This document shows positions 44,270 to 53,107 of a stretch of DNA of 64,000 bases, piece by piece. The stretch comes from Siphlonurus alternatus (lineage: Eukaryota; Arthropoda; Insecta; Ephemeroptera; Siphlonuridae): positions 32,806,359 to 32,870,358 of the forward strand of contig OX463779.1 in NCBI GenBank assembly GCA_949825025.1, given 5' to 3'. Below the pieces are notes generated by a model that saw only the letters and a list, made by a program, of their open reading frames with translations, was not told the DNA's origin and did not search any database. The position numbers were made by a program, and so were the translations under genes. Within the stretch, counting starts at the first letter, position 1. The number at the start of each line of letters is the position of its first letter.

Positions 44270-47200
44270 TCAATTATTGCTAGATTTATAACCATAAGGT
44301 AAAGTCATATGACTATTTGGAACAATCCATCTTTTGTTATTAACAATTCTATAAATTTTGGATTGCTTCTTTGTTACAAGTTCATATGACTTTGTTTTCA
44401 TAATTTTTCGAGGTATTGAGACATGTGAGGATTCACCATTTTCTAGGACCATATGTTTTAGATTATCAAAATTAACAATGCCCATATTTGAAAAATTTTG
44501 AGATATACCACGACATTTCATAACGGTTTTAACATGGTTGCCCTCGCTATTCACAACTTTATAACTATAATGCTTGGCTCCTCCGGATACAAATTGGGAA
44601 ATGGTACATCCTTCATCTAGTTCTGAACTTAAATCTCCCAAATTTGAACCTGTTGGTACAGGTTTATCACCTTTTTTAAACAAACTTAGGGCGCTATCCG
44701 TATCTACATAATTTAGTCTGTGCTGGAGCATCTCCATACATTCATTTAATCGTAGTCTGGCACCTGCAGTTACAAAGGCAGCTATAACAACGTTAACTGT
44801 GTTGTTTTGTGGTAGTAACTCAATTGGGGTTACATAATGTACCAGTAAAAACTCTTGTCCTATACAATGCACACTAGTTACGATAACATTAGGGTCAGTC
44901 AGTAATTCATAAAAATCTTTTGAGTCCTTAATGATTTTCGTTTGCTGCCTTTCTACATCCATAGCAAATCTTCCAAACAAAGCATTTAATAGTAATTTTG
45001 CAATGGCTCTAAGACCAGGGTTAAGTTCGATCTCATTGGGATCAAGTTCAATTCCCTCTGCTTCAAAAAATTCTCTTATGTATTGTTGTCTAGTTAAATC
45101 ATCCTTTACCCAATCAGGATAACCACTAGCAGACTGTTTAATTTTTAGAAACACATTTACATAGCTATCAAAGACACCTCCAGTACCAGTGTCTTTATTA
45201 TACTGAGTTACTTCATATTCCCAAATTTCTACAATTTTTAACACTTTATAGCCTATTTGTTCAGCTTTTTTGACTTCATCTAAAACCCATGTACCTGAGA
45301 GTGCTCTGTCCTCGATATCTTCGTGTATACATTCACCCTGAATGAAATTTTCAGCACATTTTCTACATAAAACAAAGAGCAACCTGTCATGCATTTTAAT
45401 TGGTAATAATGGAATGAAGAGCGAGCGTGGAGGAAGGACAACACATTTTATGAGACCATCAATTGTATGTATATCAGGAAATGTAGGTCCAAGATGAATG
45501 ATAGGGTGATGAATTGGTACTTTATAATACTTTAAAATTGCTGGATACAATGAAATAAAGTCATGAAATTGTAGCTCTGATAAGCCTAGAATGGCTTCTC
45601 TATATATAAAAAAATTTTCACATCTACCGCCATACATCGCATTCTTTGGTATCAACGGTTCTTCACACACTAGGGGATGATTATTTACATAACTCTTTAG
45701 CTCTGAATCTGCCTCTAGTAGTCGTCGGAAGTCACATTCTCGCATGACTTCTACCACGTAACCATATTGAGCCAACGCTTTCAACTTTCTTTCAGTTTTT
45801 TCTCGTTTCATTGCAAGATTATTGTATGGATCATTACTAAATTTCTTAGCTAAATCTTGTTCAGGGTTGCATAATACACATTGATGTATCCAACATCCAT
45901 TAAATTCGTAGACTGTTTCAATTCCATTGTTTTTAGAATACCCATCAACCAAAAAACCACCACGAGGTGTTCTGTATTCACCTGCATTTCCAGCATGTCG
46001 AATTTTTATGTTTTGTTCTCTTTCAATTGATAGTAGCCATTTAATTGCAATTTTTGATTGTGTGTTATACATACGGTAACCTCTAACTGGTAAAATAGCA
46101 AGTGTATTATCTTTCAAATGATTTCGTCGAAATATGAGACTTGCACAGTGTGGCAAAGTAATACATTCAACAATTGGATCCACATTTCCTACTTGTATAA
46201 TAATTTTTCTGAATTTATTCATTGCAAGACGTAAAATTTCAACATCCTTATCACAATATGATATTATTTCTTTTTGCATGTCAAATAAATATCCATTCTC
46301 TACTTGTTCATGATACCAAGAATAAAACTTTTCTCTATCTTCTACACTAAGTGAATCAGGGTCATAAAATGATGCCTGAGGCATAGGTCCAATGTAATTT
46401 CTATTACTTTCTTTGTTAAACATGTGCGGAAAGTGGCCCTTGCATAAGTCCTCATTTAAGCCTAAAGTCTTGGGTAATTTTGCTAATGACATTGGTAGAA
46501 AACATAAAGAATCGATAAACTTAAGCTTCTTATATTCTAAACAAATAATTTTTGTATTTCTCAGCAACACCTTAGGTGTTACATGCATGACAGTAAGGAA
46601 ATATCTCAATAACAAAGCAGAGTCATAACCTCCAAAATTATGTGCAAGTAGGAGAATTTTGCGAAACATTTTTCTAGGTAAACTCAAAAAATTTAAAAAT
46701 TCTCCAATGGGATCAATTTGAAATATTTGTTTTCGTATTCCATTTTTGTCCCCGCAACGTATACAAGGTACGTCTATATTTTCTTCCTCACAAACGCTGC
46801 ACTGGGAATGAGCGATTATCAAGTTACATTTGTGATAATAACCATCATCAGCATTCTCAGGATTTACAAGACATTCCTGTGTACACTCAGCATCCCAATT
46901 TACTATCATATATTTATCGCTGGACGGTGGTTTTTTTGTTGTGTCTCGTTTGATATAGCATCTGTGGTCCCTTCCTTCAGGAACATGAGTTCTACAATTT
47001 CCACAGTATTTTTCTGTGCATGTATGGCCATTTTTTCTACCTCTATACATTGTATATGTCTTTTTACATTTTACACAACATTTATAATAATCACATACAT
47101 TTTGTCTCTTTGTAAGCTTATTTGATTTATGATTAATAAAACACTTGTTGGATTTAAATGTCCTACCACAATCTGAGCAATCTACAATATAATTTTCTTC

Positions 47201-53107: not shown

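Follow-up and report, generated by a model that had tools for sequence, protein, structure and literature searches.

The 64,000-nt stretch of Siphlonurus alternatus DNA analysed here (the window) contains a complete Polinton, flanked by the target-site duplication AAATTA at 34943-34948 and 54834-54839. Its integrase, protease and probable capsid reading frames lie on the plus strand and its polymerase gene on the minus strand. The landmarks outside the polymerase gene are:

34949..54833, Polinton element, 19,885 bp; both ends open with AGTAGTAATCGAGGGGG; target-site duplication AAATTA
34949..35078, plus strand, left terminal inverted repeat, 99% complementary to 54704-54833
54704..54833, minus strand, right terminal inverted repeat (repeat arms computed as 34944-35078 / 54704-54838)
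38708..39769, plus strand, integrase with chromodomain (Pfam rve, E=4.8e-10; Chromo, E=2.5e-4, below its curated cut-off)
40512..41030, plus strand, basic core protein with the motifs QTGVG, QSGRG and MSGAG
42345..42896, plus strand, adenovirus-type C5 protease, candidate enzyme for cutting the leader (Pfam Peptidase_C5, 21.8 bits against a cut-off of 21.3)

Terminal inverted repeats with a target-site duplication, a protein-primed TP-vOTU PolB, an integrase and a C5 protease are all present, and the element is a Polinton/Maverick of the adintovirus type. The packaging ATPase candidate scores 16.5 bits with Pox_A32, below the cut-off of 22.8, and has no PHROG match; neither the major nor the minor jelly-roll capsid protein has a Pfam or PHROG match, nor does the larger capsid candidate match any PDB sequence; these reading frames are presumed to encode capsid proteins from gene order. 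The core protein (40512-41030) we take to be a counterpart of pX/pVI. Tandem repeats of 154, 90 and 61 bp occupy 53846-54767, between exon 1 of the polymerase gene and the right terminal repeat. Elsewhere in the window, a 990-aa open reading frame (22477-25449, minus strand) with a reverse transcriptase match (E=1.4e-28) and a weak endonuclease match probably belongs to a non-LTR retrotransposon.

Anatomy of the polymerase gene

The polymerase gene reads as seven exons:

52870..53107, minus strand, exon 1, 238 nt: ATG, open frame of 79 codons plus 1 nt, possibly helical; donor GTAAGTAAA
52451..52528, minus strand, exon 2, 78 nt, phase 1-1
51990..52250, minus strand, exon 3, 261 nt, phase 1-1, probably duplicated from or into exon 4
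51111..51347, minus strand, exon 4, 237 nt, phase 1-1, missing from one copy of the element (L012)
50861..50938, minus strand, exon 5, 78 nt, phase 1-1
48539..50286, minus strand, exon 6, 1748 nt, Ser/Pro-rich with an RS-like tail, phase 1-0
48134..48538, minus strand, intron 6, 405 nt, with six AATAAA/ATTAAA hexamers; read-through past its donor meets a stop at 48530
44270..48133, minus strand, exon 7, 3864 nt, complete TP-vOTU-EXO-PALM polymerase with its stop codon
48101..48115, minus strand, QIGKG (exon 7 residues 7-11), candidate protease site between leader and TP domain
47744..48091, minus strand, TP domain (exon 7 residues 15-130), AlphaFold2 order b-b-a-b-b-a-b
47312..47695, minus strand, vOTU cysteine-protease domain (exon 7 residues 147-274); all 23 aligned sequences share Cys167 and His264

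Exons and junctions lie exactly where the initial annotation had placed them, with the phases it assigned: all six introns are GT-AG, the junction phases are 1, 1, 1, 1, 1 and 0, and every exon is open in the frame that its junctions dictate. For exons 2-6 (with exon ends taken one base short) that frame is the sole stop-free one of the three, and each of the six leader exons has a positive codon score in its dictated frame and negative scores in both others. Exons 1-6 together form a leader of 2640 nt, or 880 codons. A TTTAAATA lies ~70 nt 5' of the exon 1 ATG, and a single-sequence model of exon 1 has three helices at low confidence (pLDDT 50). Disorder-promoting residues make up 0.68-0.81 of exons 2-6; exon 6 is 17% Ser and 13% Pro, with 19 RS/SR and 17 SP dipeptides. 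A search for relatives of exon 6 found none at E<=1 among 7988 scored candidates, its Pfam matches are all below cut-off, and PHROGs gave none.

The small exons resemble one another to different degrees. A DNA alignment of exons 3 and 4 with their flanks spans both splice sites (no null was computed for it), and the similarity of the two encoded peptides is moderate, 16 of 300 shuffles scoring as high. The similarity of exons 2 and 5 is weak (8 of 300 shuffles as high). Intron 3 contains a 376-bp palindrome (51420-51795, arms 94% complementary) that is possibly a nested inserted repeat.

Exon 7 by itself is a complete TP-vOTU-exonuclease-palm polymerase (Pfam DNA_pol_B_2, E=5.1e-42; alignment of 21 sequences). 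The TP domain begins ~15 residues past the phase-0 junction. In the AlphaFold2 model of residues 1-285 (mean pLDDT 88, pTM 0.54), residues 1-10 are disordered. Foldseek matches the TP domain to chains of Pol IV and pol kappa, among them the little finger of Pol IV by itself (probability 0.98-0.99, E ~0.01-0.02), and the vOTU domain to viral OTU proteases (probability 0.99, E 0.005); these matches are judged by probability, none having E<=0.001.

Copies of the gene in two families

The 455.7-Mb assembly (102 contigs) was searched for further copies; each polymerase search scored 36 matches, and the copy counts are accordingly lower bounds. Among the matches scored, the polymerase family of the window (family A) has at least 10 members that are 100% identical over the full query and free of stops, the window included, together with truncated and decayed ones. 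The stretch upstream of the polymerase was compared in 12 further A copies: nine are intact, two are decayed and one has a truncated polymerase. Two copies truncated at the 5' end were left out. The exon 7 acceptor is exact in all 12, and the six leader exons with their splice dinucleotides are present without indels in 11. The exception, L012, lacks exon 4 through a deletion that extends from the intron 3 TA repeat to just beyond the exon 4 donor; since exon 4 is phase 1-1, the join of exon 3 to exon 5 stays in frame. The decayed copies L043 and L044 differ at 30 and 28 sites in addition to gaps, with no dominant substitution type, and hypermutation of these copies is rejected. We propose that the gene belongs to a recently active Polinton.

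A second family, B, whose polymerase is 67% identical to that of A, is represented by at least 19 full-length copies without stops. In copy L010 the leader exons measure 232, 60, 111, 192, four times 69, 102 and 1157 nt, followed by the polymerase exon; the four 69-nt exons are near-identical and recur with a 144-bp period. Modulo 3 these lengths leave 1, then 0 throughout, then 2 for the last, which sets phase 1 at every junction and phase 0 into the polymerase. The design is thus that of A: after the first exon come frame-neutral phase-1 exons and then a long exon rich in Ser and Pro, which a phase-0 junction connects to the polymerase, with 17 residues from the junction to SFTI in B and 13 in A. 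The leaders themselves are not clearly homologous between A and B: exon 1 has no significant match, and the matches to exon 6 (E ~1e-8) run through low-complexity Ser/Pro sequence. All of the L010 splice dinucleotides are kept at 20 of 20 other B loci. One of these loci is identical to L010 in every exon length; in the other 19 the 192-nt exon is shorter by 18 nt, and at a few loci the long exon differs by 3 nt. The B exon indels, being of 18 or 3 nt, are all multiples of three. L029, another B copy, has five 69-nt exons rather than four. The number of small exons, then, differs between near-identical copies. Conservation of the six junctions in related elements had been named beforehand as a check on the gene model, and it holds in the 11 A copies and, as shared architecture, in family B.

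Two further observations concern B loci. At L046 and L045 (a B copy, C7:4344818) a probable major-capsid homologue (~80% identical) is in two parts, with the break after about residue 283 and ~4.1 kb of other sequence in between. At C11:44057405 and C11:44070236, two B polymerases lie on the same strand 12.8 kb apart, less than the length of one A element.

Nucleotide variation among copies speaks partly for and partly against the proposed reading. In A (the nine intact copies plus the one with the truncated polymerase, ten in all) there are 3 variants in 2640 exon sites versus 10 in 1719 intron sites, an intron count that sets aside 20 further variants in 614 simple-sequence sites; all three exon variants are replacements, a point against that reading. 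In B, the leader exons carry 38 distinct variants relative to L010, of which 37 could be classified: 17 silent, 20 replacement and none a stop, where the possible changes stand at 1465:4555:289 (silent:replacement:stop; binomial P of 17 or more silent, 0.003, treating the variants as independent). Most of these variants are common to nearly all copies against L010, and they therefore mark one split rather than many events. Variant density in B is higher in exons (38 in 2130 sites) than in introns (30 in 3003 sites).

The exon chain was also sought by computation, with a chain finder whose splice weights are generic and whose codon model comes solely from the element's other open reading frames; the exon 6 acceptor and its phase were supplied to it. 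At an intron penalty of 5 it returns exactly the five upstream exons of the initial annotation (score 126.6); at a penalty of 3 it splits exon 4 in two (score 135.9). Dinucleotide shuffles at the latter penalty give any chain in 25 of 60 cases, the best scoring 7.6. Stricter splice cut-offs cause two real sites to drop out and yield a different chain (score 26.6); in family B, too, they change the chain. With the generic settings, the finder's chains for family B include doubtful extra exons in the long first intron, and not every exon found by eye is placed. Long TA repeats in the introns would favour misassembly, but the twelve further copies at other loci, the second family and the shuffles make chance joins, decay or assembly error so improbable that the copies can be said to have refuted them already. 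Chance capture of a host gene is likewise rejected: the exons sit inside the terminal inverted repeats and travel with 12 other copies. Splicing at the six junctions is strongly indicated by these comparisons.

Transcript structure and the leader boundary

How the leader would be connected to the polymerase turns on intron 6 and on the start codon. Exons 1-6 might form a gene of their own, with the TGA at 48530 as its stop and polyadenylation within intron 6, and with the polymerase made from its own transcript: read-through of the donor soon reaches that stop, an AATAAA follows at 48494 with five more hexamers elsewhere in the 405-nt intron, and the fourth codon of the B polymerase exon is an ATG. 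Against this, the A polymerase exon is open for 131 codons (rather than the 105 initially annotated) before its first ATG, at codon 132 (47740), past the entire TP domain, and intron 6 offers no decent phase-0 mini-exon with an ATG (best donor score -5.4). Because of these two circumstances, the conserved TP domain of A needs an upstream start. In B an upstream start is not absolutely needed, given the ATG at the fourth codon, and the polymerase could in principle start without the leader; B nonetheless keeps the phase-0 junction, and its 189-nt intron has neither AATAAA nor ATTAAA. Two separate genes are on this evidence very unlikely. That both forms are made, with polyadenylation in intron 6 generating a free leader, splicing generating the fusion, and splicing thereby setting the ratio of leader to polymerase, is less far-fetched and still improbable: intron 6 of A has the most poly(A)-type hexamers of the six introns, but they are not conserved in B and are common in AT-rich DNA. 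A short leader-only isoform is possible in A. The reading of the locus as one heavily spliced polymerase gene with a long disordered leader, as first annotated, draws support from the copies and from family B, with splicing as the inferred step.

The second question is what becomes of the leader. Just 3' of the junction, where A and B differ otherwise, both have the motif QxG(K/R)G: QIGKG in A and QEGRG in B. The same kind of motif recurs in the core protein: all seven of the sequences aligned (7 of 7) keep QxGxG and MxGxG, and the core protein of B has QSGVG, QTGRG and MSGSG. The adenovirus protease cuts (M/I/L)xGx/G, and sites with Gln at P4 are also cut, including in pTP (relevant portions of PMC4246237). 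The 120 homologues listed fall into 46 clusters, 20 with a usable leader and 26 with none. In the 20 leader clusters, QxGxG or QxGG occurs near the TP start in 6, where body windows average 0.11 (none of 1000 draws as high) and shuffles 0.23; this Gln pattern was picked after the cases had been seen, and the core-protein conservation was examined later. The strict adenovirus consensus with M/I/L at P4 is found in 2 of 20 and is not enriched, a count that 261 of 1000 body draws reach. When A/S/T/E/K is allowed at P4 as a control, 4 of 20 clusters have the motif, which 15 of 1000 body draws and 91 of 1000 shuffles reach; with any residue at P4 the count is 12 of 20 against a mean of ~4. The boundary signal, as read from these counts, is mainly Gln-specific and partly one of general glycine richness.

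Two fates of the leader have to be weighed. The leader may stay fused to the polymerase, uncut by the C5 protease, as a disordered RS-like tether for which QxGxG provides a flexible glycine hinge. The disorder-promoting composition of exons 2-6 and the RS/SR dipeptides of exon 6 would suit such a tether, the [MILQN] form of the motif is missing from 12 of the 20 leader clusters (the close relative P0003 among them), and the enrichment extends to glycine motifs whatever the residue at P4; the Gln-specific enrichment at the boundary and the presence of the same motif in the core protein speak against it, and we consider permanent fusion rather unlikely. Cleavage of the leader by the element's own C5 protease is the predicted alternative.

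We consider it fairly probable that the gene encodes an intron-assembled pre-terminal-protein leader on a single spliced polymerase gene, and that this leader is removed by the Polinton C5 protease. Exon 1 would provide the start codon of the one transcription unit, from which the host spliceosome would make the full-length mRNA; the frame-neutral phase-1 exons and one long exon would encode a mostly disordered, fast-changing leader of 880 residues, and the phase-0 junction would put it ahead of the complete TP-vOTU-exonuclease-palm polymerase. The product would be a pre-terminal-protein polymerase, used like adenovirus pTP. The leader would work before or during priming and packaging (in targeting, or in binding DNA or a partner), after which the C5 protease would cut at QIGK/G just ahead of TP, so that TP would keep a defined N-terminus on the genome end. 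A separate step, in which the vOTU domain would free TP from the polymerase, is as proposed for Polintons in the relevant part of PMC11071308.

Relation to known systems

Among the literature matches listed, none reports a multi-exon Polinton polymerase in its title or the start of its abstract (subscription papers fall outside this set). A precedent for splicing on a start codon is provided by the E2B polymerase mRNAs of adenovirus, in which the start codon comes from a small upstream exon; these mRNAs share the spliced-on start exon with the gene described here and lack a leader built of cassette exons. A leader as such is not unique to this element, since other polymerases have one (P0019 and P0040, for example, with a Pro/Thr-rich stretch ahead of TP); it is the assembly of the leader from cassette exons that is unusual.

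The likeness to adenovirus pTP and its maturation protease is one of working principle rather than of membership: a precursor is cut by a C5 protease in adenovirus and would be here, and the adenovirus sites may have Gln at P4 (QRGF/G; PMC4246237, in the parts concerned), whereas the adenovirus TP is a separate protein and here TP, vOTU and polymerase share one exon onto which the leader is joined, the putative cut ahead of TP being represented by its motif. Exon 7 has the TP-vOTU-EXO-PALM order described for Polinton pPolB, with a TP domain like the Y-family little finger and a vOTU domain with its Cys and His (PMC11071308, in part); the six further exons and the 880-residue leader ahead of TP are not described in the portions concerned, and a word search of that text finds neither 'intron' nor 'splic'. 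Intact vertebrate Mavericks, as portrayed in the pertinent sections of PMC8097293, have terminal inverted repeats, a 6-bp target-site duplication, polymerase, integrase and protease in common with this element and are intronless, in contrast to the six introns inferred here; intronlessness is a descriptive trait of Polintons/Mavericks and not a criterion of membership. Endogenous viruses are described as being without introns, with one exception (PMC10120064, in the part concerned), and self-splicing group I introns are described in PLVs (PMC12220804, likewise in part). The OmPLV helicase-PolB fusion (portions of PMC12721341) is also a very long PolB with an N-terminal addition, which there, unlike here, is a helicase with its own N-terminal region.

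It is tentatively suggested, for Polintons more widely, that some may build a pre-terminal protein by host splicing, with frame-neutral cassette exons that are duplicated and lost between copies giving a rapidly varying disordered leader, and that their own C5 protease would remove it by a cut at QxGx/G, ahead of the packaging of TP on the genome ends. If so, TP maturation in Polintons would follow the logic of adenovirus pTP in cis, and gene callers blind to introns would have truncated the leader-bearing polymerases; if the arrangement is general, published Polinton polymerases may be missing real N-termini. Two families in one genome appear to have their polymerase behind a spliced leader, and the boundary motif is a concrete candidate for how Polintons may free the N-terminus of TP. 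With exon numbers that differ among near-identical copies, the leader offers a live example of how cassette exons evolve in a virus-like element.
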